A DNA stretch of 32,737 bases, from NCBI RefSeq assembly GCF_000472665.1, contig NZ_AXAC01000045.1, positions 1 through 32,737 of the forward strand, given 5' to 3'. Each line of letters opens with the position of its first letter. Within the stretch, counting starts at the first letter, position 1. A program made the translations under genes and the position numbers. Of this stretch, positions 1,464 to 28,979 are shown in pieces. The DNA is from Acetobacterium malicum subsp. dehalogenans DSM 11527. GTDB lineage: Bacteria > Bacillota > Clostridia > Eubacteriales > Eubacteriaceae. A model generated the notes under the pieces. The model had not been told where the DNA came from and made no database searches. It worked only from the letters and a program-made list of their open reading frames with translations.

Positions 1464-2696
1464 TTAAACAGCGTAGCGATATTCGCCGGTATTTTGATCC
1501 TGATCATAAAAATCGGCATAGCTGAGGCTGAAGACATCTTTGTTGATGCCGGAAACATCGATTTTATTTTTGATCAGGTATTGCCAAAATCCGGTGCCGC
1601 CGATATTCCCCTGGATAATGACACCCTGAACAACACCTTTTTTCAAAACGACTTTCTGGTAATTATAGCGGTCTTCGCGCATCAAGATCTCGCAGTTTTC
1701 TTCCGGTTCCGGGTTAATGTTCCCCAGGGACAAGGTCGTGAGTCCATAGAAATTAACGGTATTTTTAAGGGCATAGCGATCTTCATATAATAGTTTTTCG
1801 CCCAGCATGTTAATCGCAGCAATCCGTCCCTGTTTCATGGCATTAGGCCAGATCCCGGCGATACCGGTAACATCGCCAGCCGCATAGATATCGTCAATAT
1901 TTGTTTTAAGATCATCTCCGACCAAAATAGCATGGTTGGTATCAATTCCGGATCCTTCGGTAAAGTTAAAGGCCGGCCGCACTCCGGCAGCAATCACAAT
2001 GACATCGGCCGGAACCGCTTTGCCACTGGCAAGATGGATGGTTTTCCCCCGCCCCACTTCATCGACGTCAACCGACACGACCTTGTCATTTAAAATAAAC
2101 TCCGCGCCGTGTTCTTCAAACAGTTGCTGGTAGGCCTGGGCCGATTTTTGATCTAGCTGTAAACTCATCACCGCTTGGGTCATTTCGATCACCGTTACCT
2201 TTAATCCCCGCTCCAGCATCGCTACTGCAGCATCCATACCAACCAGGCCAGCACCAATGACCACAGCGTTTTGGGCCGTATTACATTCGTTATCCAACAA
2301 TTGGGCGTCTTTTAAATCACGGAACCCATAAACATTTTTTGACTCCCGGAGACCCGGGATCGGTGGAATAAAATAGGATGCACCGGTGGCAATCAGCAGC
2401 TTATCATAGCTGATATCCTGATTGTCATGGGTTTTTACCGTCTTTTTCTGAGCATCCAGACCAATCACGGTGGTATTATTAAGCCAGGTTATTCCGCTGG
2501 ACTCAAAAAAGTTGTCTGCGATAAAACTGATCCCCTTGGCATCTCGTTCATGACCCAAAAACTTATGGAGCATACAACGGGAGTGAACACTATCCTCTTT
2601 GGAAATAATGACCACTTCAGTATCCGGTTCTGAGGTTTTGATTGTTTTGGCCGCGCTGATTCCGGCCGCACTGGCTCCGATAATAACGATTTTCAT
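1464..2696 (-). CDS. FAD/NAD-dependent oxidoreductase of the CODH-linked FNOR type
   Basis: Predicted flavoprotein, 410 residues, passing electrons between NAD(P)(H) and the neighbouring CooF ferredoxin. An FAD-binding GASAAG motif is at residues 7-12, an NAD-binding GAGLVG motif near 148-153, and the second FAD contact YAAGD near 270. The pattern HSRCMLHKFL near residue 37 matches the NADH:rubredoxin/ferredoxin reductase branch rather than thiol-disulfide reductases, since there is no CxxxxC pair. The start overlaps the cooF stop by four bases (ATGA), so translation is probably coupled. Known family context: CooS-CooF-FNOR clusters occur in several Clostridia and in Carboxydothermus, where they are proposed to link CO oxidation to NAD(P) reduction or to peroxide reduction. 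Confidence 0.88.
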   Translation of the reverse strand: MKIVIIGASAAGISAAKTIKTSEPDTEVVIISKEDSVHSRCMLHKFLGHERDAKGISFIADNFFESSGITWLNNTTVIGLDAQKKTVKTHDNQDISYDKLLIATGASYFIPPIPGLRESKNVYGFRDLKDAQLLDNECNTAQNAVVIGAGLVGMDAAVAMLERGLKVTVIEMTQAVMSLQLDQKSAQAYQQLFEEHGAEFILNDKVVSVDVDEVGRGKTIHLASGKAVPADVIVIAAGVRPAFNFTEGSGIDTNHAILVGDDLKTNIDDIYAAGDVTGIAGIWPNAMKQGRIAAINMLGEKLLYEDRYALKNTVNFYGLTTLSLGNINPEPEENCEILMREDRYNYQKVVLKKGVVQGVIIQGNIGGTGFWQYLIKNKIDVSGINKDVFSLSYADFYDQDQNTGEYRYAV

Positions 2697-3142
2697 AGGC
2701 TTACCTCTTTCACTTCAATGGCTTTCTTAGGACAGGCTTTAACACAGCTGGGTCCATCCGGCTTATCTTCGCAGAAATCACATTTGATGACCTTGGTCCG
2801 GGTTTGTTTATCTGGTTTTAAAACCCCATAGGGGCAATTCATTACGCACATATAGCATGCTGCACATTTACTTTCGTCATACTGCACATGCCCGGTTAGT
2901 GGGTCTTTTTCCAGAGCGCCGCTCATACAGGACAGCACACATTCTGGTTCGTCACAGTGACGGCAGAAAATCGGCAGGTATCCCTTTTGAGCATCAAATT
3001 TAATAAAGTTGCGAGTTTCCGCTTCAGGACTTTGCATATTCACGGTGTAAAAATTACTGCCTTCTTCATGGGCACTGATACAGGCGATGTTGCAATTCAG
3101 ACAGCCATCGCATTTTTCACGATCAATGATGATTCGTTTCAT
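2693..3142 (-). CDS. cooF: CooF-like four-cluster ferredoxin
   Basis: Electron carrier between CO dehydrogenase and a partner enzyme, 149 residues, cytoplasmic. Sixteen cysteines in four groups (11/14/17/21, 60/63/68/72, 93/96/99/103 and 121/124/133/137) predict four [4Fe-4S] clusters with the crossed arrangement typical of CooF, HycB and DmsB proteins. It starts 12 bases after the cooS stop with a good AAGGAGG site and overlaps the downstream FNOR gene by four bases. No hydrogenase genes follow, so electrons probably go to the flavoprotein instead of to proton reduction. Confidence 0.9.
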   Translation of the reverse strand: MKRIIIDREKCDGCLNCNIACISAHEEGSNFYTVNMQSPEAETRNFIKFDAQKGYLPIFCRHCDEPECVLSCMSGALEKDPLTGHVQYDESKCAACYMCVMNCPYGVLKPDKQTRTKVIKCDFCEDKPDGPSCVKACPKKAIEVKEVSL

Positions 3143-3154: not shown

Positions 3155-5038
3155 TTAGATGTTTAATTCCTTGCGTTTCTTTTCAATGATCGCATCCAAA
3201 GTTTCAGCTGCTGATTTAGCATTGTCATCAATGATCAGTTGTCCACCGGTCAAATTCAACATATCCTGGGTGAACACCTGAACCGCCACGGGACTGCCGG
3301 TAACAAACGGTGGTAATCCTAAATGGAGTGGTAGTCCCAGTGCTAAACCAAAGGCCCCATCGGCCAGTGCTTGTTCTTCCAGCCACTGTGGTGCTGATAA
3401 AACCAGCGGTAATTGCGGTAAATCGACGCCGATTGCTTCGGCCAGTTCGGTAGCCACCAATTCCAGTCGGCCAATGGCCAGACAGGGGCCAAAGTTTAAG
3501 ACCGGCGGAATCCCCAGACTTTCACAAACCGCCCGCAGTTTTGGTCCAGCCAGAGATGCCGCTGAAGGTGACATCAAACCGACATTTTCCAATCCGCCGG
3601 ATGAACATCCCGCTGATAAAACCAGAATATCTTTGGCAATCAATTCTTTAACCAGATTAATCGTCAACACATCATGGCCACCGGCAGTTAAGCTGGAACA
3701 TCCGACCACGCCGGCAATCCCTTTGATTTCACCCTTCACGATTAGATCAATCAGTGGTTTCCAGGTTCCACCCAGAAATGATTTCAGCGACCCCTCACTG
3801 ACACCGGTTAAGGTATCGTCGTTACCGTGGTCAGCATCCATATTCAGAGTAACAACGCCTCTTCGGGCCTGATAGGATTCGATCACGGCATCGATAATTT
3901 CATTGCTCTGGCTTTCTTTTTCTTCAAAAACAAATGGTTTCATTTCGGCATTGGCTTTTTTAGAAACATCATCCAGGCAGATTTGCTTGATTTTTAATTC
4001 ATCACAGATTGGCTCGATCCCCGGCAAAGTACAGTTAAATTCTGATAATACCGCATCAATGGCGCCGGTGGCCAGAATTGCCTCGCTGGTAAAATTGTTA
4101 CCGGCATGGCCGTTAAATACCTCTTTGTAATGTTCGCCGCGCAGCTGCAAATCCTGACCAACACAGGTACATCCAACCAGTTTAAATCCTTTGGCACCGA
4201 CAGCTTTAGCTTTCTCAATAACATCATCTTGAATCAGGCGATCCTGTAAGTAGGAAAAGATAGAATGTTGATGGCCAGTAATCATGATATTAATATAGTC
4301 TGTGTCGATAACCCGTAAGCCCACTGGTGCCAAACGGATCGATGGTTCGCCCAGCATCACATCGTTTAACAGATTAGTCAGCGTTAAACCGTAAAGACCA
4401 GTGGAAATCCCCAGTTTTAAACAATTTAGATACATATCAACGGGATCAGAATTGAGATTAGTGGATGTTTTAACAACTCCGGAAAATACCTCAGATTTTG
4501 CGCCACCTGGTAGTATCCCCAGTTCTTTCCAACGATCAAAGCGTGGTTTATAGGCCATTTTTTCAACCAGTTCCATTTTTATATAGTCGGGCTTATATAA
4601 ATCGGCTAAAACCATGTCGGCAATTTTTTCAGCACAGACATGTTCATCAGCTTCATTGATTTCAAAGATTTCGGCCAGTTTTGCCAGTGCCACCTTGCCT
4701 TTTAAGACCCCTTTGCTGGCTGCTGTTTTTTTGAGCATCAGCGCAGTGTTTTCAACAATATGGATATAACATCCGGAACCTGCGGAAACGGCCCTCAGGA
4801 AATTTCTGGCCACCATGGTATCGGCGGTAGCACCGCAAACCCCTTTGGGTCCGTCCGGGGTGATTCGACATGGCCCATTGGAACAGAGACGGCAGCAGAT
4901 TCCCTGCAGTCCGAAACCGCATTTGACACTTTGTCCTTCCATCCGGTGATGGGATGTGTCGACACTAAGATTAGAAATAAAGGTTTCCAGTTTCTGGTCC
5001 GCACTTGCACAGGTTTTGCAGCTAAAATTTGAATTCAT
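3155..5038 (-). CDS. cooS: Carbon monoxide dehydrogenase catalytic subunit CooS, divergent form
   Basis: Ni-Fe CO dehydrogenase family, 627 residues, predicted homodimer. Cys40 and Cys48 match the D-cluster and Cys49, 52, 57 and 68 the B-cluster. The C-cluster ligands are all present by alignment from memory with Carboxydothermus CODH-II: His256, Cys292, Cys336, Cys447, Cys478 and Cys519. Two features differ: the catalytic lysine (Lys563 in CODH-II, in a HEKA motif) is Gln556 in EEQA, and most of the histidines of the proton path near residues 90-100 are missing (GCYIHIVEN). The motif around Cys519 is NFGPCLAIGR where CODH-II has HMGSCVDNSR. An extra CKTC pair is at Cys7/Cys10. No acs genes adjoin, so this is not the acetyl-CoA synthase partner. 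GGAGG lies seven bases before the ATG. Confidence 0.9.
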   Translation of the reverse strand: MNSNFSCKTCASADQKLETFISNLSVDTSHHRMEGQSVKCGFGLQGICCRLCSNGPCRITPDGPKGVCGATADTMVARNFLRAVSAGSGCYIHIVENTALMLKKTAASKGVLKGKVALAKLAEIFEINEADEHVCAEKIADMVLADLYKPDYIKMELVEKMAYKPRFDRWKELGILPGGAKSEVFSGVVKTSTNLNSDPVDMYLNCLKLGISTGLYGLTLTNLLNDVMLGEPSIRLAPVGLRVIDTDYINIMITGHQHSIFSYLQDRLIQDDVIEKAKAVGAKGFKLVGCTCVGQDLQLRGEHYKEVFNGHAGNNFTSEAILATGAIDAVLSEFNCTLPGIEPICDELKIKQICLDDVSKKANAEMKPFVFEEKESQSNEIIDAVIESYQARRGVVTLNMDADHGNDDTLTGVSEGSLKSFLGGTWKPLIDLIVKGEIKGIAGVVGCSSLTAGGHDVLTINLVKELIAKDILVLSAGCSSGGLENVGLMSPSAASLAGPKLRAVCESLGIPPVLNFGPCLAIGRLELVATELAEAIGVDLPQLPLVLSAPQWLEEQALADGAFGLALGLPLHLGLPPFVTGSPVAVQVFTQDMLNLTGGQLIIDDNAKSAAETLDAIIEKKRKELNI

Positions 5039-5134: not shown

Positions 5135-5163
5135 ATTATAGAGCTGGAATAAATACTTGTCAA
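5135..5163 (-). promoter_or_regulatory. Consensus sigma-A promoter of the cooS-cooF-FNOR operon
   Basis: Minus strand TTGACA (5158-5163), 17-base spacer, TATAAT (5135-5140): a perfect match. The odd palindrome GAATGATTC (5164-5172) abuts the -35 box and may be an operator. A perfect promoter suggests control by a repressor rather than by an activator. Confidence 0.85.
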
Positions 5164-5211: not shown

Positions 5212-5243
5212 GAAAAGCCTGATGCCAAAGCATCAGACTTTTT
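5212..5243 (-). terminator. Terminator of the PerR-like gene
   Basis: Stem CTGATGC (5219-5225) / GCATCAG (5230-5236), loop CAAA, flanked by AAAAG and CTTTTT so it can act both ways. It separates the regulator transcript from the cooS promoter. Confidence 0.8.
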
Positions 5244-5300: not shown

Positions 5301-5714
5301 TCAGGCAAAAAGCGACACTTCCATACGGTTCAAAGAAATATCTTCAGGTAGTTTATTTCTAAAATAATCCGCGAGTAGAATCTCCAGTTCCGGATCGTAG
5401 TAATCACAGATACCGTTATTCTCCTTGTTGTATATATGCACATGAAACTGAGTGTTTGCATCAAAACGCATCACTTCTTGATTATCCTTGAGTTTTTGAA
5501 TCAGGCCTTTTTCAGAGAATGTTTCCAGGATATTGTAAATGGTCCCTACCGACATCACATATCCCTGATTTTCAAGGGCTTCCATCAGCATGTCGGCACT
5601 GGGATGAGAGGTCATTTCTGACAACACTTTTAGCACACTGATTCGTTGCGGTGTAGCTTTTAATCCGGCACCACGGATCACGTCTGTATACATTTGGATC
5701 TTTTTATTTTTCAT
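5301..5714 (-). CDS. Fur-family regulator, PerR-like, without the structural zinc cysteines
   Basis: DNA-binding metalloregulator, 137 residues. The winged helix spans about 15-75 with LKATPQRISVL and the recognition segment SVGTIYNIL. The five residues that hold the regulatory Fe/Mn in Bacillus PerR (His37, Asp85, His91, His93, Asp104) are all present at the same numbers. The four cysteines of the structural zinc site (96, 99, 136 and 139 in PerR) are all absent; the only cysteine is Cys103. This suggests a peroxide or metal sensor stabilised in another way. It lies directly upstream of the cooS operon, on the same strand but with its own promoter and terminator. AGGAG is 12 bases before the ATG, rather far, so translation may be modest. 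Confidence 0.85.
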   Translation of the reverse strand: MKNKKIQMYTDVIRGAGLKATPQRISVLKVLSEMTSHPSADMLMEALENQGYVMSVGTIYNILETFSEKGLIQKLKDNQEVMRFDANTQFHVHIYNKENNGICDYYDPELEILLADYFRNKLPEDISLNRMEVSLFA

Positions 5715-5945: not shown

Positions 5946-6437
5946 TCACAGTCGCATCGATTTGGGAAGATTATAGGGACGATTTTTAAGCGCCATAAAT
6001 CCATCTGCGATTATTTCATCGCCAATCATTTCTTCTGCAAAAAGTTCATCGTCTGCTGTCAGGATTCGGGTTTCAACTGCTGGTGTCATTTCTCTGCCTT
6101 GATCCAATAATCCTCTCGCTAAGCTTTCAACTTCAAAACCTTTTTCGGTTTCGTAGCTGAATAATTTGTCACCGATAATTTCGTCTGCGATAATTTCATC
6201 AGTCAGTGCTTCATCGTCTGTTTGGAGCTGTTTTATTTCTTTTGCTGGCATCATATCCCTGCCGCCATCCAGAAATGCTCTTGGGAAACTTGTTTTTTCT
6301 ACCATTTCCTCTTTAAGGAATTCATCAGCGAACTTCTTATCAACAACAACTCCCGTTGTTATTACCATGCCGCAAAACCTGCATTTTGTATCGTCAATAC
6401 TCAAAATGTAAGTACATCTAGGACAATACTTTGGCAT
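5946..6437 (-). CDS. Zinc-ribbon protein with tandem DEIIADEII repeats, soluble
   Basis: Function unknown; 163 residues from the ATG at 6437. Cys5, Cys8, Cys19 and Cys22 form a zinc ribbon at the same positions as in the protein at 215-799. Two clear tandem repeats of about 38 residues follow, near 56-93 and 111-148: each starts LDxGR(D/E)M(M/T)PA and ends in TDEIIADEIIGDKLF or AEEMIGDEIIADGFM. A degenerate third copy may lie near 35-50. There is no membrane segment, unlike the paralogue. ATG 6437 has AAGGAAG eight bases upstream; the longer frame to 6470 would run through that site. It is a single gene with its own promoter. The repeats suggest protein binding, but nothing identifies the partner. 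Confidence 0.8.
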   Translation of the reverse strand: MPKYCPRCTYILSIDDTKCRFCGMVITTGVVVDKKFADEFLKEEMVEKTSFPRAFLDGGRDMMPAKEIKQLQTDDEALTDEIIADEIIGDKLFSYETEKGFEVESLARGLLDQGREMTPAVETRILTADDELFAEEMIGDEIIADGFMALKNRPYNLPKSMRL

Positions 6438-6460
6438 TTTACTCACTTCCTTCCATCTGT

Positions 6461-6489
6461 ATTTTATCATAAATTCACAATCTTTACAA
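6461..6489 (-). promoter_or_regulatory. Promoter of the second zinc-ribbon gene
   Basis: Minus strand TTGTAA (6484-6489), 17-base spacer, TAAAAT (6461-6466). The spacer end and -10 match the promoter of the paralogue at 823-851, so the two genes may be expressed together. Confidence 0.65.
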
Positions 6490-6632: not shown

Positions 6633-9134
6633 TTATACAAATAAGGTTGTTCCGGCATTTTCATTGCTGGCAATGTAGGTTCCAACCCCAGCGTACTCAA
6701 TCCCGTCAATCAGTTCTTCTTCCTTGATGCCCATCAGATCCATACTCATGGTGCAGGCAATAAAACGAACCCCTGCCTTTTGGGCTTTTTGGATCATCGT
6801 ATCGAGATCATCAACATGTTTCTTTTTCATAATGCCCTTGATCATCGCCGGACCGGCTCCTAACATATTCATCATCGATAAAGGTAGTCTGGCTGCTCCT
6901 TTTGGCATCATGGCACCAAACATTTTTTCGATAAAGGTCTTGTTATGGCCCTTTCCATCTCTTCTTCTGAGGGCATTGAGTCCCCAGAATGTGAAAAAGA
7001 GGGTGACGTTTTTACCTTGGGCGGCTGCCCCCTGGGCAATAATCATCGATGCCAGGACCTTATCCAGTTCCCCACTGAAGACCACCAGGGTAGCATTTTT
7101 CTGGGTCGAGACGGCTGGCATCAAACTACAGGTTTCCCCGGCATCACCTTTTCGAATCACGCTGATATAGCTTTTGCCCTGGGTTTCCTGCGATATCAAG
7201 GTATGTCCATTGGTTTCGCACCAGCTTTTAATATCGCTGACGAAACCAAAATCAGTGGCGATAATCTGAACCAGATCACCAGCATTGACACTTTGAATCG
7301 CCTCATAAGTCGCCATTAACGGTCCTGGACATTGGAGTCCGGTAACATCAACCTTTTTCTTGATCACCTGCGTTCCATCGCCACCCTGATCGATATTTCC
7401 ACTATTTGAGTCGTCTTTCTTGGGAACGCACTCACCGACGGTGAAATCGGGCTGAGCCAGCTGATAGTGGGCTGTTTTGTAGGTACTGTAACCACCCGAT
7501 AAATTATAGACATTAGTAAAACCGTGACCTTTTAAAATCCGGATCCCCAGGTAAGCCCGCTGACCGACCTGACAGGTCACATAAATGGGCATATCCGTAG
7601 TGATGTTAATTTCGTCAATGCGATCTCTTAAAGTATCCAGTTCGATGTTGACGGCGCCTTTGATAGCCCCGGCGCTGAATTCAATCGGAGTTCGCACATC
7701 CAGCAAAAATCCGCCGTTAGCGACAATCTCGTCGATTTCAAACCATTCGACGGTCTGATAGACGCCTTCTTCAATGTTACTGGCGATATACCCCAGAACA
7801 TTAATGGGGTCTTTCGCTGAAGAAAAAGGTGGTGCATAACATAATTCAAAATCTTGAAGATCTAATACCGTCGCACCCGTTTTCATCGCAGTGGCAATGA
7901 CGTCAATTCGTTTTTCGGTGCCATCCTGGCCCACGGCCTGAGCACCAAGGATTTGCAGACTTTTAGGATCATAGAGCAGCTTTAAGGCGATATTAGTGGA
8001 GTTGGGATAATAACCAGCATGATTGGCCCGATGTGCCATCACGACTTGATAGGGGATTTTTTTCATATCCAGCTGTGCTGCATTATTGCCCGTTGATGCG
8101 ATTGTTTTGCTAAAGACCTTGGCGACTGCGGTTCCCTGAATACCGACATTCTTTGTCTGGATATCATTGATATAATCGGCAACGACCCGACCCTGGCGGT
8201 TTGCCGGCCAGGCCAGCGGGATGGCAGTCTGATTTTTAGTGACAAAATCCTGCACTTCAATGGCATCGCCAATGGCAAAAACATCCGGATAAACAGCATC
8301 CGTTTCGTCATTGATAACTTCATAATTGGCTGTCGTGACAATGTGGCCCCGGGGACCGCATTTGAGCCTGGCATTTTTCGCCAGGCCATTTTCAGGAACA
8401 ACCCCAATAGCCAAAATAACTAGATCTGCCTGTAGTACCATGCCACTTTCTAAAACTACTTCGGTTCCCTGTTTTTGGAAATGATCCACACCATCTTCCA
8501 AAATCAGATTCACGCAATTGGCATTAATTTCCTGATGGACCAGTTGAGCCATTTCAAAATCCAGGGGTTTCAAAACCTGATTCATTTTTTCCACCAGGGT
8601 AACATTGATGCCTAGCTCCTGGAGGTTTTCAGCCATTTCAACACCGATAAAACCACCACCAATAACAACCGCACGGCCCACCTTGCCGGCATCCACGATC
8701 GCCTTGATTTTATCGGTATCAGGGATATTACGCAACGTTAAAACATTTTCCGCTTCGGCGAATCCAGGAATCGGGGGGGCAATAGGTTTTGCTCCGGGTG
8801 ATAAAATAAGCTTATCATAGGTTTCTGTATAAACCTGATCAGTCTGATGGTTTTTAACTTCCACTGTTTTAGCCGCCGGATCGATCCCAATGACCTCACT
8901 GAAATTCCGGATATCGAGATTAAATCGTTTTGACATTCCCTCGACGGTTTGTACCAGTAATTTCTGACGATCTGTAATCACATTGCCAATGTAATAAGGT
9001 AAACCGCAGTTTGCAAAAGAAATGTACTCATCGCGTTCGAACAAGATGATTTCATCTTCTTCACTCAAACGACGCAACCGCGCAGCAGCAGTGGCGCCGC
9101 CGGCGACACCTCCAACAATTAATATCTTTTTCAT
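6633..9134 (-). CDS. Multidomain sulfur enzyme: CoA-disulfide-reductase-like + rhodanese + TusA + DsrE-like
   Basis: 833 residues combining four sulfur-handling modules. Residues 1-450 form an FAD/NAD oxidoreductase (GGVAGG at 8-13, GGGFIG at 159-164, AIGD at 287-290) with the redox Cys43 of CoA-disulfide, NADH-oxidase or polysulfide reductases. Residues 460-560 are a rhodanese domain with Cys521 in TCQVGQRA. Residues 592-662 are a TusA domain with the CPGP motif at Cys602. Residues 675-833 are DsrE-like, with Cys794 in ACTMSMDLMG. Together they probably reduce per- or polysulfides and relay sulfane sulfur along the cysteines. The ATG overlaps the stop of the ArsR gene by one base (TAATG), so the two are coupled. 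Related fusions are known; the substrate here is inferred. Confidence 0.88.
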   Translation of the reverse strand: MKKILIVGGVAGGATAAARLRRLSEEDEIILFERDEYISFANCGLPYYIGNVITDRQKLLVQTVEGMSKRFNLDIRNFSEVIGIDPAAKTVEVKNHQTDQVYTETYDKLILSPGAKPIAPPIPGFAEAENVLTLRNIPDTDKIKAIVDAGKVGRAVVIGGGFIGVEMAENLQELGINVTLVEKMNQVLKPLDFEMAQLVHQEINANCVNLILEDGVDHFQKQGTEVVLESGMVLQADLVILAIGVVPENGLAKNARLKCGPRGHIVTTANYEVINDETDAVYPDVFAIGDAIEVQDFVTKNQTAIPLAWPANRQGRVVADYINDIQTKNVGIQGTAVAKVFSKTIASTGNNAAQLDMKKIPYQVVMAHRANHAGYYPNSTNIALKLLYDPKSLQILGAQAVGQDGTEKRIDVIATAMKTGATVLDLQDFELCYAPPFSSAKDPINVLGYIASNIEEGVYQTVEWFEIDEIVANGGFLLDVRTPIEFSAGAIKGAVNIELDTLRDRIDEINITTDMPIYVTCQVGQRAYLGIRILKGHGFTNVYNLSGGYSTYKTAHYQLAQPDFTVGECVPKKDDSNSGNIDQGGDGTQVIKKKVDVTGLQCPGPLMATYEAIQSVNAGDLVQIIATDFGFVSDIKSWCETNGHTLISQETQGKSYISVIRKGDAGETCSLMPAVSTQKNATLVVFSGELDKVLASMIIAQGAAAQGKNVTLFFTFWGLNALRRRDGKGHNKTFIEKMFGAMMPKGAARLPLSMMNMLGAGPAMIKGIMKKKHVDDLDTMIQKAQKAGVRFIACTMSMDLMGIKEEELIDGIEYAGVGTYIASNENAGTTLFV

Positions 9135-9421
9135 TATAAATCCTCTCCGTATAAAGCCTGAATAATATTTTTGGCTGGCTTACTGATGACTTCATAATAA
9201 ATTTCATTTCCCGTCCGATATCCCTTAACAATCCCGGCATTTTTCAGCTTGGATAAGTGTTGCGAGACCCCTGACTGAGAAACCTCAAGACACTCTTCCA
9301 TATAGGAAACGTTACATCGCCCATTCGCGATCAGCCCTTTAGTAATACAAAGCCGTACCGGATGGCCCAAAGCTTTTAGAATCTCAGCCGTTATCTCGTG
9401 ATCTTTCAAATCCATTTCCAT
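9134..9421 (-). CDS. ArsR-family repressor, likely redox or persulfide sensing
   Basis: Small winged-helix repressor, 95 residues from ATG 9421. The HTH is ALGHPVRL ... VSQSGVSQHLSKLKNAGIV, with the recognition helix near 48-65. Cysteines 25, 36 and 44 are the only ones. They do not form the ELCVCDL metal site of classic ArsR, and the C-terminal cysteine used by SqrR/BigR persulfide sensors is missing, so the sensing chemistry is open. ATG 9421 has AGGAG eight bases upstream, which the longer frame to 9445 lacks. It is the first gene of the operon with the sulfur fusion enzyme, and its promoter carries a perfect palindrome, so autorepression lifted by reactive sulfur or thiol stress is likely. 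Confidence 0.88.
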   Translation of the reverse strand: MEMDLKDHEITAEILKALGHPVRLCITKGLIANGRCNVSYMEECLEVSQSGVSQHLSKLKNAGIVKGYRTGNEIYYEVISKPAKNIIQALYGEDL

Positions 9422-9464
9422 GAAACTTTCTCCTTGTGTTAACATAATAAATCAGCCTAACATT

Positions 9465-9866: not shown

Positions 9867-10292
9867 TTAGTTACTACCCAGTAATTTATATAATAATCGG
9901 TATAAGGTAATTGCTTCCTCCTCGGTGATGGGTAGGCATTGCTTAATTTTATCAGGAATCAGGCTGGCCGGTACCTTAAGTGCCTCGCCGGCCGGAGTCA
10001 GTTTGATAATCACATTGCGCTCGTCATTGGAATCCCGGTTACGTTCAATAAATCCCGCCGCTTCCAGGCGTTTCAGTAAGGGGGTAAGGGTTCCGGAATC
10101 CAGATATAAATACTCTCCCAAGTTTTTTACATTGATGGTTTCGTGTTCCCACAAGACCATCATGGCAATGTATTGGGTGTAGGTCAGTCCGATTTCATCT
10201 AAATAGGGTTTATAGCGTTTGACCACCTCTTTAGCACTGGCATAAAGGGGAAAACACAATTGGTTTTCCAGTTTCAGTTGTTCATTGTTCAA
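9867..10292 (-). CDS. ohrR: OhrR, organic-peroxide-sensing MarR-family repressor (two-cysteine type)
   Basis: Dimeric winged-helix repressor inactivated by organic hydroperoxides, 141 residues. The OhrR signature is strong: LENQLCFPLYA, YKPYL, LTYTQY and YLDSGTLTPLLKRLE. Counted from TTG 10292, Cys13 is the reactive cysteine and Tyr27 and Tyr38 are the tyrosines that contact it. A second cysteine, Cys119, lies 106 residues on, close to the 105-residue spacing in the two-cysteine Xanthomonas OhrR, so a disulfide switch is likely. TTG 10292 is preferred because AGGAG lies eight bases upstream; GTG 10301 would overlap that site. No ohr gene is adjacent; the next gene upstream is a glutathione peroxidase that shares promoter elements. 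Confidence 0.92.
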   Translation of the reverse strand: MNNEQLKLENQLCFPLYASAKEVVKRYKPYLDEIGLTYTQYIAMMVLWEHETINVKNLGEYLYLDSGTLTPLLKRLEAAGFIERNRDSNDERNVIIKLTPAGEALKVPASLIPDKIKQCLPITEEEAITLYRLLYKLLGSN

Positions 10293-10324
10293 GTCAATCA
10301 CTCCTTTGAAATAATTTATAAGTC

Positions 10325-10353
10325 ATTATACCTCACAATGCCATTGCCGGCAA
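10325..10353 (-). promoter_or_regulatory. ohrR promoter with candidate operator
   Basis: Minus strand TTGCCG (10348-10353), 17-base spacer, TATAAT (10325-10330). A palindrome CAATG-C-CATTG (10336-10346) lies in the spacer. The block TTATACNNCACAAT (10326-10339) recurs at the gpx promoter (10887-10900). Confidence 0.65.
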
Positions 10354-10368
10354 TTTTTCAAAAGGAAG

Positions 10369-10848
10369 TTACTCACTTAGTAGTTTTTTGATATCATTCT
10401 CGATTTTTTCAGGAACGTCAGTCGGTGCAAAACGTTTAACCACTTCGCCTTTTTTATTCACTAAAAATTTAGTGAAATTCCATTTAATATTGGAACCCAG
10501 CATTCCGCCTTTTTCTTTTTTCAAGTAGGTAAACAGCGGATCAGCATTGTCGCCGTTAACATCAATTTTATGGAAAATCTTAAAAGTGACTCCGAATCGG
10601 GTTTCGCAGAAACTCTTTATCTCATCATCGCTACCTGGGGCCTGGTTAGCAAATTGGTTGGAAGGAAAATCGAGGATTTCGAAACCCTGATCCTGATATT
10701 TATCATATAGATCCTGAAGTCCTTCATATTGTGGGGTCAGGCCGCAGCCGGTGGCCGTATTCACGATCAGCAGCACCTTACCTTCGTATTCTTTGATCGA
10801 AACATCCAGGCCACTGGCATCTTTGACGGTAAAATTATATATGCTCAT
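10369..10848 (-). CDS. Glutathione-peroxidase-family thiol peroxidase (Cys type)
   Basis: Reduces H2O2 and organic hydroperoxides, most likely with thioredoxin as in other Cys-type members; 159 residues, cytoplasmic. Peroxidatic Cys35 is in ATGCGLTPQYEGL. Gln65 in SNQF and Trp123-Asn124 in KWNFTKF complete the catalytic tetrad. Cys81 in SFCETRFGV is at the resolving position of two-cysteine enzymes. The ATG at 10848 has AGGGAG seven bases upstream; the frame to 10899 has no such site. Its promoter shares the TTATACNNCACAAT block with ohrR, so OhrR control is plausible. Confidence 0.93.
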   Translation of the reverse strand: MSIYNFTVKDASGLDVSIKEYEGKVLLIVNTATGCGLTPQYEGLQDLYDKYQDQGFEILDFPSNQFANQAPGSDDEIKSFCETRFGVTFKIFHKIDVNGDNADPLFTYLKKEKGGMLGSNIKWNFTKFLVNKKGEVVKRFAPTDVPEKIENDIKKLLSE

Positions 10849-10885
10849 TTTATTTCTCCCTTGCGTTATTTGATTGTATGAAATT

Positions 10886-10913
10886 ATTATACACCACAAT
10901 TTAATTTCGTCAA
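10886..10913 (-). promoter_or_regulatory. gpx promoter with OhrR-like site
   Basis: Minus strand TTGACG (10908-10913), 16-base spacer, TATAAT (10886-10891). The spacer holds ACAATTTAATTT (10896-10907), close to the ACAATT-AATTGT type OhrR operator, and the block shared with the ohrR promoter. Confidence 0.65.
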
Positions 10914-15894: not shown

Positions 15895-17796
15895 CTAAAG
15901 TTTGATGCCTTCGGGAAAGCCCACTGAAAAACCCGGTTGTTTGAGTATTTTTTGATTGGAAAAATCAATTTTTTCCAGAGCATTGCAGCCAAAGAAGGCA
16001 TATTCACCGATGGTCTCCAACTCCCTGGGAAGATGAATTTCAATCAAATTTTTACATCCATAAAAGCAGCTGATGCCGATGTGTTTTAGCTGATCCGGGA
16101 GAATGATTCGGCTGATTTGATCACAATCCTTAAAAACATGACTTCCGAGCATTTCCAGCTGGCTGTTTCCATAAAATTCCACCGACTTAAGGCCCCGGCA
16201 GCCGAGAAAAGCAGCTTCTTCGATTTCGATCAGGGCGTCCGGAATAATCAGTTCTGCCAACGACTGGCAGCCTTCAAATGCCGATGTGCCAATCACTTCC
16301 AGCATCTTGCAGTGGTTCAGGTCGATTTTTTTTAATGCCTCACAGCCATAAAAGGCGAAGTCTTCAATCGCTTTGATAGTGTTAGGAAAGGTGATCGTTT
16401 CTAGTTGGCTGCATTTATAAAACATGCTTCGCTTGATGATCTCGACACCCTCGGGGATATGTACCGATTTTATCTCGTTGTCGTGACGATAGCCATGGTT
16501 TGCCGCTGCCTGAAATGAGGCTGCATCTTTAAAGACCAGTTCCTGATTTCCGGCAAGGTCAGTAAAGGGCTCCGGGTCATTTCCAAAATTGAGGCCAGGA
16601 TTTTTTGGGAAAAATGGTTTTGGTTCATTTTTCGAAAAAAAACCCATCCCCTTTTCATTGATTGTGAAATCTGTTTGGTTCGTGCTAATGAACTCCTGTT
16701 CCGGTTGGTAATCCCAGCTTTCCGGTTCCGCCTCTGCTTCTTTATCCGTTACGATGATTGTCTCCGCTGCAAATTGGTTTACTGGATCAATTTCCAGGTC
16801 CGCTTCCGGCGCACCATCGGTTAACCCGCTGGGTAAGGTGGTGTCAATTATATCCAATTTTTCCAGGGCTTCTTTTTTTTCTTCCAGGGCCTGATTCGCC
16901 ATAAATAATTCATTTTTGATGACATCCAGTTCTTCCCGGATCGGAAGCCGGTCTGGGTCGATGGTTTGTTCAACTAACCACTTGGCAGCGTGTTCGTTTT
17001 TGGCGGTTAATAATTCATCGCCAAGAATTTCCAACTCGTCTTTAGACGCCTGAACTTTTTCCATAAGGCTTTGCAAGTCAGTTTCAGACCCGTAAATATT
17101 GGCTTTGACCGCGTGCAGTTTATTTCTGGCAACTTCCAGTTCCTGACGGGTATTTTCCAATTCGGTGTTAAGCTGCGACAATTCTGTTTTTTGCGATTCG
17201 ATTTCATCATTGATCTGAATCAGATCCTGACTGACTGGAGATAGTTCACTGTTTTCCGAACGGTTGCCAGCCAATGCCGGGATCCCCTGCTGATCTGGAT
17301 TTTGTTCAAAAATGACCAGAAAGAAATCCTCATTCTGACCAATCGACGCTTGTTTGAGAAGTGGAGTCACCCGAATAGTAAGCCCCATAGTTTCCCCGTT
17401 TCGTCTTACTGTCACAACCGGGGAAGCACTGGCTGAGCGACTGGTAACGGCGTGATACAAGGTGGTATTCAAGTCACGGCGCAATTTTTTCCGGGCCATC
17501 TTCAGGATATTGTTTACTCCCGTATAACCCTGGGCGGGCTCCAGAAATAACCCGGTATGTCCATGAACATAGCGGATATTCCCCATCTGATCAACCAGCA
17601 CCGCCACCGGTGCATAAGCTTTTAATAATGCCTCCTGGGTCAACTCCTGAAAAGTTTTCTTTTTAGGCCCCACCCGTCGGACAATCGTAAAAAAGAGGGG
17701 CCACTCAAGGGCCCCCGATAATGGTAAAAATCGATCCTTCAGCAGATATTTCTTTTTATTTTGATTCCGTAATGTTGTTCTTTTCTGGTCTTCCAT
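15895..17796 (-). CDS. PAS / coiled-coil / BspA-type leucine-rich-repeat protein
   Basis: 633 residues, no signal peptide. Residues about 53-165 form a PAS-like domain whose pattern (LLKAYAPVAVLVDQMGNIRY, GHTGLFLEPAQG, NILKMARKKLRRDL) is that of the PAS region found in CheB-CheR-PAS fusion proteins. Residues 190-312 are a heptad-rich coiled coil (ELSQLNTELENTRQELE) like the linker of those fusions. An acidic low-complexity stretch (320-430) leads to about eight LRR_5 repeats (440-625) with the FxGCxxL ... IxLPxxLxxIGxxAF pattern. The neighbour upstream is cheR, 48 bases away, so it is probably co-transcribed. BspA-type LRRs are usually on the surface; here no secretion signal is seen, so it likely acts in the cytoplasm as a scaffold for signalling. 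AGGAGG precedes the ATG. Confidence 0.85.
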   Translation of the reverse strand: MEDQKRTTLRNQNKKKYLLKDRFLPLSGALEWPLFFTIVRRVGPKKKTFQELTQEALLKAYAPVAVLVDQMGNIRYVHGHTGLFLEPAQGYTGVNNILKMARKKLRRDLNTTLYHAVTSRSASASPVVTVRRNGETMGLTIRVTPLLKQASIGQNEDFFLVIFEQNPDQQGIPALAGNRSENSELSPVSQDLIQINDEIESQKTELSQLNTELENTRQELEVARNKLHAVKANIYGSETDLQSLMEKVQASKDELEILGDELLTAKNEHAAKWLVEQTIDPDRLPIREELDVIKNELFMANQALEEKKEALEKLDIIDTTLPSGLTDGAPEADLEIDPVNQFAAETIIVTDKEAEAEPESWDYQPEQEFISTNQTDFTINEKGMGFFSKNEPKPFFPKNPGLNFGNDPEPFTDLAGNQELVFKDAASFQAAANHGYRHDNEIKSVHIPEGVEIIKRSMFYKCSQLETITFPNTIKAIEDFAFYGCEALKKIDLNHCKMLEVIGTSAFEGCQSLAELIIPDALIEIEEAAFLGCRGLKSVEFYGNSQLEMLGSHVFKDCDQISRIILPDQLKHIGISCFYGCKNLIEIHLPRELETIGEYAFFGCNALEKIDFSNQKILKQPGFSVGFPEGIKL

Positions 17797-17844
17797 ATCC
17801 GGTTCCTCCTAAATTGTTAAGGTACTGCCCACTATATCTTTGCC

Positions 17845-18672
17845 CTAAAAAGGCTTCTGATACACCGCTGGCATAATAAATTTATAGTTTGTTTGTTTCA
17901 GATTCAGGGATTCTGCGTGACCAATAAACAGATACCCTCCGGGTTCGGTGTAATTGTACATTTTTTCCACCAACCGATCCTTGGTAGCCTGATCAAAGTA
18001 AATCATCACGTTTCGACAAAAAATCACATCAAACTTCTTTTTAAAAACAAAGGTCGGGGTCATCAGATTGAAACGGCGATAAATCACTTCTTTCTTGATC
18101 TCATCGACCACCATCATCTGGTTGCTGTCATAGTTCTGAAAATATCTCAGTTTCCAGTTGGGGGGCAGCACCTGAATCCGCTCTTTGTCATAAACTCCCC
18201 TTCTGGCCATATCCAGAACCTTATTTGAGATATCGGTAGCTAACAGCTTTTTGTCCCAATGATGGCCGTCCGATCCGAAAAACTCGGCCATGATCATGGC
18301 CAGGGTATACGGTTCTTCTCCAGTGGAACTGGCGGCACACCACAATCGAATATCGCGATTGTTTTCAGCTTCCTTTTTTTTCTTGAGATAGGGCAGAACC
18401 GTATTTTTAAAATAGTCAAAATGTTCCGGTTCGCGCATAAAAAATGTATGATTAGTCGAAACCTTGTCGATGAGTACCGAACTGGCTTCCCCGGTTTTAT
18501 CTGAAATCAAATAATGATAATAGTCTGTAAAGCTATCAAAGCCCAGCTCCACCAGCAGTTTATGAAGACGGCCCATCAGCAGGAGCTGCTTTTCTTTTTT
18601 TAACTCGATGCCATATTCGCTATGAATATATTCCGTTAACATGGCAAATTCTTTTTCGGTGATTTGAATCAT
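17845..18672 (-). CDS. cheR: CheR, chemoreceptor glutamate methyltransferase
   Basis: Transfers methyl groups from S-adenosylmethionine to receptor glutamates, 275 residues. The N-terminal helical domain (1-75) is followed by TNHTFFMRE at 73-81, the SAM site LWCAASSTGEEPYTLAM at 110-126, ATDIS at 145-149, CRNVMIYFD at 219-227 and GHAESL near 250. Length and motifs are complete. No cheB methylesterase is in the window. It sits with the PAS/LRR gene and apart from the cheA operon, divergent from the hemerythrin gene. Confidence 0.95.
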   Translation of the reverse strand: MIQITEKEFAMLTEYIHSEYGIELKKEKQLLLMGRLHKLLVELGFDSFTDYYHYLISDKTGEASSVLIDKVSTNHTFFMREPEHFDYFKNTVLPYLKKKKEAENNRDIRLWCAASSTGEEPYTLAMIMAEFFGSDGHHWDKKLLATDISNKVLDMARRGVYDKERIQVLPPNWKLRYFQNYDSNQMMVVDEIKKEVIYRRFNLMTPTFVFKKKFDVIFCRNVMIYFDQATKDRLVEKMYNYTEPGGYLFIGHAESLNLKQTNYKFIMPAVYQKPF

Positions 18673-18988
18673 TCTTCCACATCCTCAATCCTGTTTATCA
18701 TCGCTTCACCCATGGCCTGAAATGGCAACACATCAGGTAAAACCTTAGAATAGTTTACCCCAGCCCGCGGTTAATGTAAATACTGAATTTTTGAGTTGTT
18801 CCCCATGCTTTATGGGAATTAAGCTTTCTTTTTTTCAATGCTGAGGCCAGTAAAATCACTGGTCTTTAAATTTGCCGATGATGGAAAATCTGTACTCCAT
18901 TTTATTGACGTTGCCAGGAATCGCAGCTGATTTAAGCTGCTGTCACAAAAACTACCCCAGGAAAGCCGAATTATCCTTGATAATTTTC
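18673..18988. other. Divergent intergenic region between cheR and hemerythrin
   Basis: It holds a possible cheR promoter (18752-18780) and three short hairpins: CCCAT/ATGGG near 18809-18823, CCAGT/ACTGG near 18847-18862, and GCAGCT/AGCTGC at 18923-18940. None has a U-run or matches a riboswitch class I know. No gene is supported. Confidence 0.4.
18752..18780 (-). promoter_or_regulatory. Possible cheR promoter
   Basis: Minus strand TTTACA (18775-18780), 17-base spacer, TAAACT (18752-18757). Moderate match only. Confidence 0.4.
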
Positions 18989-19017
18989 TTGTCATCCGAC
19001 TCGAAAAGGGCTATAAT
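18989..19017 (+). promoter_or_regulatory. Hemerythrin promoter
   Basis: TTGTCA (18989-18994), 17-base spacer, TATAAT (19012-19017), 31 bases before the ATG. Confidence 0.8.
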
Positions 19018-19048
19018 AGAATAAATCTAATTTAGAATGGAGACAATC

Positions 19049-19450
19049 ATGGCAATTGTATGGACACCAGCATTATCAGTCGGCGTAGAAAACATTGATT
19101 CACAACATAAAATCTGGTTTGAAAAAGCAGATCAGCTTTTTGAAGCCGGGAAAACCGGAAAATCAAAGGAAGTTATTGCCCAGATGTTTGATTTTCTCGA
19201 CGACTATACCAAACAACATTTCAGAGATGAAGAAGCCTATATGACAAAAATTAACTATCCTGATATTGAAGAGCAAAAGAAGTTGCATAAGAACTTTATT
19301 GCCGAATTAGCAAAACTGAAAAAGGATTTTCAGGAGTCCGGCGGCAACATTACCCTGATTATCAATGCCAATCAGATGATCGTTGATTGGCTGACTAAAC
19401 ACATTTCGACCATGGATAAAAAAATCGGTACCTACGCCCAAACCCTATAA
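19049..19450 (+). CDS. Bacteriohemerythrin
   Basis: Di-iron oxygen-binding protein, 133 residues, single domain. The ligands appear in order: His in NIDSQHKIW, His and Glu in KQHFRDEEAYM, His in LHKNF, then His and Asp in TKHISTMDKK. Start ATG 19049 has GGAG six bases upstream; ATG 19037 would lie on that site. It is the only plus-strand gene, with its own promoter and terminator. In anaerobes such proteins scavenge or sense O2, or deliver it to chemoreceptors and reductases; beside chemotaxis genes a sensing or protective role is plausible. Confidence 0.93.
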   Translation: MAIVWTPALSVGVENIDSQHKIWFEKADQLFEAGKTGKSKEVIAQMFDFLDDYTKQHFRDEEAYMTKINYPDIEEQKKLHKNFIAELAKLKKDFQESGGNITLIINANQMIVDWLTKHISTMDKKIGTYAQTL

Positions 19451-19455
19451 AAAGC

Positions 19456-19490
19456 AAACCGCAGTCTCGTCGGAGAATGCGGTTTTTTTT
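19456..19490 (+). terminator. Terminator of the hemerythrin gene
   Basis: AAACCGCA (19456-19463) and TCTC pair with GAGA and TGCGGTTT (19478-19485), followed by a T-run to 19490. Confidence 0.9.
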
Positions 19491-19516
19491 ATCCGCAGAC
19501 CTGATTATTTAAAAAT

Positions 19517-19942
19517 TCAGTTCTGCTGCCTGCTGCTATCAAGATTTTCAAGAAAACCGATTTTTTTCAGCACCGCTGTTAGTTTTATCATATCAATGGG
19601 TTTTGATGCATAGGCATTGCAGCCATAGTCAAAGGCCGACTGAACTATCTGAGTTTCCCCCAGCACGGTGGTCATGATAATTTTACACGTTTTTGCTTCA
19701 TCGACACCATTTTGCCGTTCCAGATCCCGGATCGTTTTTAAAACCCGGATCCCATCAATTTTTGGCATCATCACATCGAGACAGATCAGATCATAGGGCA
19801 AACCATCTTTAGTGGCTAAAAGATAGGCATCGATGGCTTCCAGGCCATCAACGACCAGATCGCAGTCACCATATCGACTCAAAAATTTTGACAAAAATTT
19901 TCGGCTGACCATATCGTCTTCCACAATTAAAATTCGTTTCAT
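19517..19942 (-). CDS. Single-domain response regulator (CheY-like)
   Basis: Receiver domain only, 141 residues. Acidic pocket Glu8-Asp9-Asp10, phosphoacceptor Asp56 in CLDVMMP, switch Thr91/Thr92 and Lys114 in SKP are all present. It follows the hybrid kinase with one base between stop and start, so it is the likely phosphorylation target of that kinase or of CheA. No DNA-binding or enzymatic output domain is present; a role as CheY or as a phosphate relay is inferred. Confidence 0.92.
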   Translation of the reverse strand: MKRILIVEDDMVSRKFLSKFLSRYGDCDLVVDGLEAIDAYLLATKDGLPYDLICLDVMMPKIDGIRVLKTIRDLERQNGVDEAKTCKIIMTTVLGETQIVQSAFDYGCNAYASKPIDMIKLTAVLKKIGFLENLDSSRQQN

Positions 19943-19943
19943 C

Positions 19944-22900
19944 TCAATTCTCCCATTCGTTCCCGGTATTCATCAGCAGCCAGATTTCCTCGATTCGTTT
20001 TAAATACTCGGTCACTTTTTCGACCCGGTCTTTTCGGATTTCCAGTTCCATTTTAAAAACCAGACTTTTCAATTCGGCGGCATTCATTTGTTCAAATATC
20101 TCTTTCAGCTGATGGGCGATGACTTCCATCAAAATCAGGTTTTCCTGTTCCAGCAACAGCTTGAGACTATCAATTTTTTGATTGATCTCCCACTTTATTT
20201 TTTGATTTATCGTTAACGGCCCGGCCAAACCAATTGTCGTCATTTGCTGCTCTGGTTGATAAAAATTGCTGATCATTGTCTCCAGCTGAGAAGTTTCTGG
20301 TTTCTGCCGATCGCCCAGATATTCTTTTAGCAGCAACTGCATCTGATAGCGATCCAATGGTTTTGATAAATAACCATCCATACCGCTGGCCTTAAAAATC
20401 GCTTCATCACCTTTAAGGGCAAAGGCTGTCAGGGCGATGATGGGGGTTTTCTGATTCGGGGACTTTGGCGATACCGGGTATTCCAGAAAGGGCTCGGTTC
20501 TGTCTGACCTGCCGCGAATCATCTGCGCCGCCTGGATCCCATCCATGACTGGCATCTGCACGTCCATGAGGATGATGTCATAGCTTTTTTTTGACGCCGC
20601 CCTAACCCCTTCCACCCCGTTGCCGACCACATCAACCGTTGCACCAAAACTTTCAAGCATCTTTGCGATAACGATCTGATTGACCCGGTCATCTTCAACC
20701 AATAACACTTCCTCACCGGAAAAACTGACTTCCTCGCCGGACTCCGCTACTGTTTCACCCGGTTTCTTGGTAATCACCATCGGCAGAAAAATAGAAAAGG
20801 TACTCCCCACCCCCAATTGGCTGGTAAAGGTCACGCTGCCGCCCATCATTTCAAGGAGCTGTTTGGTAATCACCAGACCCAAACCCGTACCACCATACTC
20901 CCGGGTATATGAGCCATCGATCTGGGTAAAGCTCTTGAACAACAGTGAATAGTCTTTTACATCAATCCCGATGCCGGTGTCGGTGACAGAGATCTTCTGA
21001 ATGACTTCCGCGGGTTTGTCAGGCTGAAGCTCCTGACTGACCGTGATTTTAACCGACCCGGCATTGGTAAATTTGATGGCATTGCTGAGGATATTGTTGA
21101 TAACCTGCTTGAGCCGCATACTGTCCCCAATGACGAAATTAGAGCTAATTTTTTCATAACTCACTGACATTTCCAGGCATTTTTCCAGGGCGTGTTTCTT
21201 ATGGGTTTTAACTGTCGACTCGATGAGATCCATAAGATTGAAACTCATCGGCTTGATCATCAGTTTACCGGCCTCGATTTTGGCAAAATCAAGAATATCA
21301 TTAATAATCCCGATCAGCGAGGTCACACAGCCTTTGGCGGTTCTCAAATTGTCCTTCTGTTCCTCGGTCAACGGTTCCAGGGCAGTCAAATCAATCATCC
21401 CGACAATTCCGTTTAGCGGGGTACGGATTTCATGGCTCATGTTAGCCAAAAATTCGCTTTTCGCCCGATTGGCTTCTTCAGATCGTTCGATGGCCTGTTT
21501 CAGTTTGATTTCGGTTTTTTTCTTGACATCAATGTCCGCTGACAGCACCGCGATATATCCGGCTTCAGGACTGTAGATGGAACCTTCCACCCACTTTTTC
21601 AGTCGGATCATATAATATTCTTCCAAATGGATATTTTCGCCGTGGGCAAGAACTTCCTGAAAGCGGTTGAACAGTCCCTGACTTTCTTCGGTTTCGAGAA
21701 ATCCCATTTCGGATAGTTTGTGGCCAATTACCTCATCCCGTTTAATCCCAAACAGTTTTTCAGTGGCCAGATTCATTTCCACCAGTTCGGCATCCACCAG
21801 ATTGCGATCTCGGTCATACAGGGCTTTGAAGTATGAAATACTGCTGTCCATATATTTAAACAACGAAAAGTATTTCTTCTGACTTTTGATAAACAGTTCT
21901 TCGGCAAACCGTTCATCATGAATATCCAGAAACAAACCGATCATTCCGGCGTATTCCTGATTTTTGTCATAGAACGGCCGGCCCATCCCCCGGAAGGTCC
22001 GGTAGGTATTGTTCGGAGCCAGCAGTTCCAGTTCAATATTAAAATTGATTTTCTCACTGAGGGAGCGATTCAGAGTATCAATAAAACGGCTGTGATCGTT
22101 ATTTTTCATATGGTTGCTCAAGTCTTCCAGAAAGGATTCCCGGGAGATATTCATAAATGCTTTAAAGGTCTGATTGATAAAATCACAAATCTGATTGTGG
22201 TCGATCCGATAAATCATCACTGGCAAGCTGTCTAATATCGAGAGGCTTGATTCCCGGGCTTCTTTTAAACCACGTTCATAATAGACCTGCTCGGTAATAT
22301 CTTCCAGGGTAATGATATACTCTGAGTGATTGGCGGAAATAATTGGCAGGACACTGACATTAAGATAGCGGGTGTCTTCACTGCCGCCATTTATAAAATT
22401 TACTTTAACAGATTTGTCCCTGACCATCTTTTGATCTTCCAGAACTCGGGTGACGATTTTGCGGAACAGACAATAACCACAATTCAGCGAATAGCCACAC
22501 CCTCCATTGACACTGAAAACGCATCCCAGAGCGTCACCAAAAGCCTTGCCGAGAACCCGGGATTCGTCCAGATTAAATGTTTTGAGAAACGCCCGGTTGA
22601 CCCGGTTGATCAAAAAGCGGTCATCAATAACCAGCATGCTGGTGGGCAGCAGATCAAACATCATTTTTAAATTATTTCGTTCTTTTTTGATGGTTTTTTC
22701 AGCGGCGATGATTCGGGAGATATCCCGAAATACCACCACCTTGCCCAGATAGTCTCCGCTTGCTGATAACAATGGTGACAAATGCGCCGACAGGTAGCAT
22801 TTGCTGCCATCCGGTTTTAAATAAAAAGAGTGTTTAGGCAAACCCACACTTGCGCTGAGTTCGGTATTTTTGCCCTTGGCCCAGAGCTCCACGGGCGCTT

Positions 22901-23111: not shown

Positions 23112-23165
23112 CAGACTTCTCCAGATCAATAGATTTTAAGTGTTAAGGTGACATCATTGAGTTGG

Positions 23166-28968: not shown

Positions 28969-28979
28969 CTCCCATACCT

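Follow-up and report, generated by a model that had tools for sequence, protein, structure and literature searches.

A clade C CooS of Acetobacterium malicum subsp. dehalogenans with glutamine and tyrosine in place of the Lys563/His93 pair

The cooS locus and its surroundings

The window, i.e. the whole stretch of 32,737 nucleotides analysed here, belongs to the genome of Acetobacterium malicum subsp. dehalogenans (4.05 Mb, 76 contigs) and carries on its minus strand the gene cooS (3155..5038), which encodes the 627-residue catalytic subunit of a Ni-CODH. A first-pass annotation had recognized a CooS at these positions, and this holds for the minus strand, the plus strand being interrupted by many stops. 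The protein reaches 750.9 bits against the NCBIfam model of the anaerobic CO dehydrogenase catalytic subunit (TIGR01702, cut-off 478) and contains the Prismane domain (PF03063); with 22.7 bits against the hybrid cluster protein (HCP) model TIGR01703 it stays below the cut-off (360.8) and is thus no member of that family. Its membership in clade C (structural group C-1) is firm: all six C-cluster ligands are present together with Tyr91 and Gln556, and its clade stands apart from clades D, E, and F with 100/100 support. The type II D-cluster motif C40-X7-C48-C49 matches the group C-1 pattern Cys-X7-13-Cys-Cys, and the N-terminal motif C7xxC10 matches the group C-1 feature (Cys x2-4), with CxxC in 80 of the 80 named rows. 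Placement in the CODH tree and a structure model had been proposed as checks; the tree separates the protein from clade D, to which CooS-V of Carboxydothermus (D-1) belongs, and AlphaFold2 yields a confident fold (pLDDT 90.5, pTM 0.91), although its best match is CooS-V, which is not a CODH.

The gene was found in 18 of the 19 Acetobacterium genomes searched, split into two pieces in one, and the window copy is 98% identical to those of two MAGs (one labelled Acetobacterium sp.), 95% to its counterpart in a MAG of A. wieringae, and 91% to the A. bakii gene. The same genome holds a canonical CODH (L002) adjoining a CooC-like gene, and two further members of the prismane family (L001, L003) that resemble HCPs.

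cooS heads a three-gene unit of the CODH/CooF/FNOR type. It is followed by the genes for a CooF-like 4Fe-4S dicluster ferredoxin of 149 residues (2693..3142, minus strand; Pfam Fer4_11 and others) and for FNOR, an FAD/NAD(P) oxidoreductase of 410 residues with a rubredoxin-reductase C-terminal domain (1464..2696, minus strand; Pfam Pyr_redox_2, Rubredoxin_C). CooF adjoins cooS in 77 of the 80 named loci and FNOR is present in 77 of 80; both lie 3' of cooS in 76, with three of the four misses located at contig ends. A predicted sigma-70-type promoter, TTGACA-17-TATAAT with a 12/12 match, precedes the unit (5135..5163, minus strand), and an exact TTGACA-N16-18-TATAAT occurs at most 300 bases upstream in 10 of the 16 Acetobacterium loci with a located start, the window included. 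Alignment of the upstream regions of 14 of the 17 Acetobacterium loci (three starts were not found) showed a promoter common to several and no discernible operator, and no Rfam family reached its gathering score in the window.

Upstream, a terminator-like hairpin (5213..5242, minus strand) lies between cooS and the gene of a Fur-family (PerR/Irr-like) regulator (5301..5714, minus strand; PF01475) with its own promoter-like site (5780-5752), such that the latter looks like a separate transcription unit, as judged from sequence. This regulator has a single cysteine and hence presumably lacks the usual Cys4 structural zinc site. A close relative is found upstream of cooS in 12 of the 17 Acetobacterium loci (window included) and is absent in four, while L008 offers only 106 upstream bases. 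A search with a PerR-box consensus (up to three mismatches) gave seven matches in the window vs 3.7 expected and none in the cooS promoter; therefore, no regulatory link from the Fur-family protein to cooS is claimed. In 34 of the 80 named loci a regulator of the Rrf2 type is encoded directly upstream of cooS; five examples scored above the Rrf2 superfamily cut-off and below every equivalog cut-off.

Several other genes of the window deserve mention. Two zinc-ribbon-like proteins (5946-6470 and 215-808, both minus strand; below Pfam cut-offs), with acidic repeats that look similar by eye, flank the operon region. An 833-residue fusion (6633-9134, minus strand) of CoA-disulfide-reductase-like, rhodanese, TusA, and DsrE2-like domains, suggestive of a device for handling persulfide or carrying sulfur, adjoins an ArsR-family regulator gene (9134-9445, minus strand). 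A second oxidative-stress pair is found nearby (9867-10899, minus strand), formed by an OhrR/MarR-like regulator (below the model cut-off) and a glutathione-peroxidase-like gene. The region 15895-30206 (minus strand) contains signalling and chemotaxis genes, for a BspA-type LRR protein, a hybrid histidine kinase (1061 residues), two MCPs, CheW, a CheA-like and a FIST protein; a CheR-like gene at 17845-18672 was recognized by eye only.

The active site and the spread of its residues

Alignment with the AcsA of the same organism and with relatives places the C-cluster ligands at H256, C292, C336, C447, C478, and C519, as the first-pass annotation had claimed for all six. The replacement of Lys563 of CODH-II by Gln556 (codon 3371..3373, minus strand) likewise stands, in the ungapped block EEQALAD (window 3359-3379), as does the change of HMGSC to NFGPC. 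The reported loss of proton-path histidines is real, but it concerns all four positions and not three: His93 of CODH-II aligns with Tyr91 (codon 4766..4768, minus strand), and what we take to be the remaining histidine positions of the path, 96, 99, and 102, align with Ile94, Asn97, and Leu100. The protein does have a histidine at its own position 93, one residue off register, yet invariant among the rows with Gln.

Three changes had escaped the first-pass annotation. Ile567 is replaced by Asp560 (codon 3359..3361, minus strand); Glu554 (codon 3377..3379, minus strand) precedes the Lys/Gln position by two residues and corresponds to the cluster glutamate of HCP (Glu494) and of CooS-V (Glu556); and Cys294 of CODH-II, equivalent to Cys301 of DvCODH, is replaced by Thr291 (codon 4166..4168, minus strand), within a Cys-Thr-Cys stretch that leads into the ligand Cys292. 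Cys301 of DvCODH was reported to be needed for nickel and called strictly conserved, its loss giving a nickel-free, inactive enzyme (PMC6168284). The protein shares the fold and the C-cluster ligands with the canonical E/F enzymes (CODH-II, DvCODH, and its own AcsA), whereas the 17 canonical E/F rows have His93, Cys294, Lys563, Ile567, and Ser/His561; the defining triad His93/Cys294/Lys563 reads Tyr, Thr, Gln in the window protein. Neither is the CooS-V type matched, which has Glu at the position of Cys295 and retains Lys563, in contrast to Cys292 and Gln556. By sequence, Lys39, Lys190, and Lys361, which hardly vary within clade C and seldom occur in E/F rows, may be considered candidate substitute lysines.

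How widely this pattern is shared was read from an alignment of 168 prismane-family rows, with identity measured against the window protein (L004, the same as L005, and the broken copy L026 were dropped). At least 50% identity was reached by 134 rows, and 133 of these have Gln at the Lys563 position, the one exception (L094) being an open reading frame that ends short of the site; among the rows with Lys, none exceeds 41% identity. Of the 133 Gln rows, 54 were obtained by searching the proteins of whole genomes and 79 by scanning for the motifs PVLNFGPC and QWLEEQAL, an approach biased for Gln; eight scan rows repeat genomes of the protein-search set, and comparison of the last 300 residues leaves 120 distinct rows. 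Thr291, Cys292, Glu554, and Asp560 occur in 133 of 133 Gln rows, and Tyr91 in all 131 that reach the site. Cys294 and Ile567 are constant in the 17 His/Lys rows of the E/F type, whose Glu site is occupied by Ser or His; in ten further His/Lys rows, some of them clade-B-like, Cys294 is likewise present, the Glu site is Ala, Ser, or Asn, and position 560 is Ile, Gln, or Ala. In the trees one change suffices for each signature, and the Gln clade is supported at 100/100, the window protein falling in a clade of 27 rows at this support that also includes T. kivui CooS and is uniform in Gln, Cys295, Glu, Thr, and Asp. Clade names of rows were assigned by residue signatures and not by the tree of Inoue et al. 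2019, and groups C-3 and C-4 are not knowingly part of the sample. A local oddity, i.e. decay or a sequencing error in one gene, would account for the departure from CODH-II and for nothing more; since Gln recurs in 133 of 134 rows of at least 50% identity, chance and sequencing error are excluded, and the recurrence of Tyr, Thr, and Glu across the clade, along with the presence of the gene in 18 of 19 Acetobacterium genomes, leaves this explanation practically untenable.

The loss of the Lys/His pair is not peculiar to the window protein, since the available part of the work of Inoue et al. 2019 (PMC6344411) prints it as a trait of clade C: in all four structural groups His and Lys give way to Tyr and Gln, the set of C-cluster ligands is complete, and groups C-1 and C-2 are tied to CooF and FNOR. 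The ligands, Tyr/Gln, D-cluster motif C-X7-CC, N-terminal CxxC, and partner genes of the window protein agree with groups C-1/C-2, and none of the features tested separates it from clade C as described there. Table 2 of that paper does not list Thr291, Glu554, and Asp560; on the strength of the alignment, the signature of the clade as sampled is wider than listed there, which is new here.

Comparison with clade D and HCP gives weight to another explanation, namely an HCP-like stress reductase, in which NADH would reduce, via FNOR and CooF, a modified and possibly nickel-free C-cluster that acts on hydroxylamine, NO, or peroxide and not on CO. Glu554 occupies the position of HCP Glu494 and CooS-V Glu556, the Tyr at the His93 position is shared with CooS-V and the greater part of clade D, and Cys294 has given way to Thr. 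In Foldseek, the predicted model matched CooS-V best (TM 0.94, 2.3 Å), with CODHs at 0.88-0.92 among the 50 matches listed. According to the accessible text of PMC6344411, HCP too has the Tyr, as well as the Glu ahead of the Lys site; HCP and CooS-V, on the other hand, have Glu where the window protein keeps Cys295, and both retain the Lys. HCP forms a separate branch in the tree, and CooS-V carries an Fe-S-O cluster and shows no CO/CO2 activity. The available part of the Ca. Galacturonibacter paper (PMC7000372) is about HCP-like genes. Asp560 is shared with the 17 clade-D-like rows, which have Met, Ile, or Val at position 294 together with Glu, Lys, and Asp. Two sets of rows stand out beside these: 11 CODHs (L051-L061) with Tyr91, Met294, Cys295, Glu, Lys, Asp, and N-terminal Cys residues (D-3-like), whose pocket represents another uncharacterised type between canonical and CooS-V; and three clade-B-like CODHs (L159, L160, L161) with Asp for the second Cys that keep His93, Cys294, and Lys563.

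CooS of T. kivui as a reference enzyme

The cooS gene of T. kivui (TKV_c08080) was located as L180 in genome G828, where nine of nine published primer stretches match exactly, inside the gene and in both flanks. Another candidate, L178 of G540, was rejected; three of its four in-gene primer sites are mismatched, and it is a close relative with 96% identity. At the positions of Tyr91, His93, Thr291, Cys292, Glu554, Gln556, and Asp560, T. kivui CooS has the same residues as the window protein, from which it differs in overall sequence (50% identity), in the lack of the N-terminal Cys motif, in a longer CooF, and in its thermophilic host. FNOR was not among the plus-strand open reading frames of at least 150 residues in the 4.8-kb T. 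kivui locus, and CooF is the only operon partner reported in the available part of PMC13056359. The genome has a CooC-like gene beside acsA. That T. kivui CooS lacks Lys563, His93, and Cys294, as read from the alignment, is new here; our literature search, which left subscription papers mostly outside its coverage, found its residues stated nowhere.

Jain et al. purified CooS with CooF1 from DSM 2030 cells bearing a plasmid-borne gene, and the accessible text gives 13.9 U/mg for CO:methyl viologen (MV) and 0.5 U/mg for CO:ferredoxin, with a Km(CO) of 5 µM, vs 213.9 and 111.5 U/mg for AcsAB (PMC8683389). Arithmetic on these published values gives CooSF1/AcsAB ratios of 6.5% (CO:MV) and 0.45% (CO:ferredoxin); since the two differ, carry-over of AcsAB does not explain the CO:MV activity. 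In the CO-adapted strain, deletion of cooS abolished sustained growth on CO (late and weak growth, and none after the second transfer in mineral medium) and left 14.9 U/mg of activity in extracts, down from 178.6 U/mg, while re-introduction restored growth on CO with 76.9 U/mg (PMC8683389, available part). In glucose-grown cells, according to the same text, CODH activity was unchanged by the deletion (about 51-54 U/mg, values swapped between the paper's text and table), and re-introduction gave 107 U/mg vs 53.8 U/mg in the mutant. The purified CooSF1 (13.9 U/mg) stays far below the extract that it supposedly dominates (178.6 U/mg), a discrepancy without explanation in the accessible part of that paper. 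In work by another group, expression of cooS and cooF1 was lowered in a CO-adapted strain growing on CO, and transformation of that strain led to loss of a megatransposon needed for growth on CO (PMC12056078, accessible part); because of this loss the deletion work could be confounded, though the re-introduced strain argues against it.

Since T. kivui CooS, with the same residues, oxidises CO in these reports, a Tyr/Gln/Thr site does not preclude CO oxidation, and by this comparison loss of the Lys/His pair does not by itself mean that CO chemistry is lost; the same activity speaks against the HCP-like reductase. Bohm and Land 2026 regard T. kivui CooS as the only isolated example of clade C, suspect low or absent CO activity in the clade, and set this enzyme aside on account of its early-branching sequence and presumed origin in a CO-adapted strain (PMC13056359, available part). 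The doubt over a laboratory-evolved enzyme seems at odds with plasmid-based production in DSM 2030, as far as the accessible account of that work goes.

Nickel insertion, genetics, and the proposed function

The distribution of the nickel insertase CooC bears on whether the site holds nickel. The published survey counted CooC within operons only, whereas whole genomes were searched here: 44 clade C genomes and 30 more, which after removal of one repeat and of one entry with the coordinates of an earlier genome left 72 distinct ones; some MAG loci and the majority of the other Acetobacterium genomes lie outside this set. CooC was scored above 100 bits with a query from the window genome (P0002, labelled CooC by its look and its place beside acsA, not by a family model), with listing limits of E <= 1e-25 in the first search and E <= 1e-12 in the second, and canonical CODH above 450 bits to the organism's own AcsA. 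CooC is present in 35 of the 36 clade C genomes with a canonical CODH (the exception is the MAG G493), and in one of the 36 without, namely G106, where it adjoins a clade-B-like CODH; it occurs in none of the 28 genomes with a single CODH match, taken as the clade C gene itself, counts in which related species are not independent and completeness of genomes reached via named loci is not established. In the second search G499 and G493 gave no more than weak CooC matches (50-56 bits), and His93, Cys294, and Lys563 were present in the CODH sequences inspected from nine genomes of the canonical group. This pattern across clade C genomes is new here. Lachnotalea glycerini, for instance, yielded a clade C CODH as its sole CODH and no CooC. 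The absence of CooC from 35 of 36 genomes without canonical CODH, together with Thr at the position of DvCODH Cys301, disfavours a normal nickel site, and CooC in 0 of 28 genomes with clade C as the only CODH matched favours the HCP-like reductase. It does not prove absence of nickel, since CODH-II itself works without CooC and CooC is not needed by every CODH (PMC13056359, available part), a point that counts against the reductase in turn. Further circumstances in its favour are the Rrf2 (IscR/NsrR-type) regulators upstream in 34 of 80 named loci, the Fur-family genes in 12 of 17 Acetobacterium loci, and the O2 response of C-1 genes in C. ljungdahlii and C. acetobutylicum, as cited in the accessible part of PMC6344411. 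Taken with the retained Cys295, we regard the HCP-like reductase as a somewhat unlikely, if still serious, alternative.

Genetic data are also available for C. autoethanogenum. The mutant in cooS1 (clade C) showed on CO a lag longer by 2.9 days and a 42% lower OD. On H2/CO2, loss of cooS1 removed the lag and doubled the OD, which, along with the regulator genes close to cooS, would suit a redox or CO sensor, or a regulatory protein with little catalysis, as suggested for clades C and D by the 2026 eLife survey. The neighbours of clade C genes counted by Bohm and Land 2026 fall under the headings FeS (72%), oxidoreductase (71%), and transcription (58%) (PMC13056359, available part). The NAD(P)-linked electron chain kept in 76 of 80 loci suits turnover over sensing, however, and sustained growth of T. 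kivui on CO needs CooS (PMC8683389, accessible part), such that a sensor is quite improbable. The acsA mutant of C. autoethanogenum, with only cooS1 and cooS2 left, made CO (2.03 mmol); as CooS-V (clade D) lacks CO/CO2 activity, the clade C enzyme is the likelier source.

From these data we lean, by a modest degree, to the view that the window protein is a slow, reversible CO/CO2 oxidoreductase linked to NAD(H), in which the acid-base system has been replaced; we infer the reaction, its direction, the new base, and nickel in the cluster. Slow CO/CO2 chemistry is favoured because the T. kivui pocket matches, the cooS1 mutant grows poorly on CO, and the CO of the acsA mutant is assigned to the clade C enzyme. 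The enzyme would work with CooF and FNOR, with electrons passing from the C-cluster via the B/D clusters to CooF, the FAD of FNOR, and NAD(H), and its role may be CO scavenging or the venting of reductant beside the main CODH/ACS. The Lys563/His93 pair would be replaced by a coherent set of residues, Tyr91, His93, Thr291, Glu554, Gln556, Asp560, and Asn515, in which Glu554 and/or Asp560, with the invariant His93, may take over proton transfer, as their invariance and position suggest. The first-pass annotation had suggested a little-known variant that performs slow CO chemistry or acts on a different substrate; this agrees with clade C and with T. kivui CooS being slow on CO, though the loss of the Lys/His pair is not special to the window protein.

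Against the CO/CO2 oxidoreductase it must be said that T. kivui CooS is only 50% identical and comes from a genome with a CooC-like gene; that the glucose-grown deletion gave a null result and cooS was down-regulated in the other CO-adapted strain (PMC8683389, PMC12056078, available parts); that the acsA mutant consumes no CO despite an intact cooS1, and cooS1 is not required on CO according to transposon data (PMC9004356, accessible part); and that the predicted model finds its closest solved fold in CooS-V.

In accounts of CODH mechanism and nickel loading, Lys563, His93, and the non-canonical Cys count as indispensable, and clade C as sampled lacks all three. It can be proposed, tentatively and as a possibility short of an expectation, that clade C represents a second solution to nickel-based CO/CO2 catalysis, in which Glu554 and Asp560 with His93 and Gln556 replace Lys563/His93, and nickel is loaded without Cys294 and, in genomes with only this enzyme, without CooC. 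If true, three residues and a maturase held to be necessary for a working C-cluster would not be general requirements. With the CooC pattern it becomes possible to probe for nickel use by clade C in organisms where no other CODH was found, several of them gut bacteria, and the clade itself is a natural triple variant for testing the roles of Lys563, His93, and Cys294, with one member, the T. kivui enzyme, that oxidises CO.
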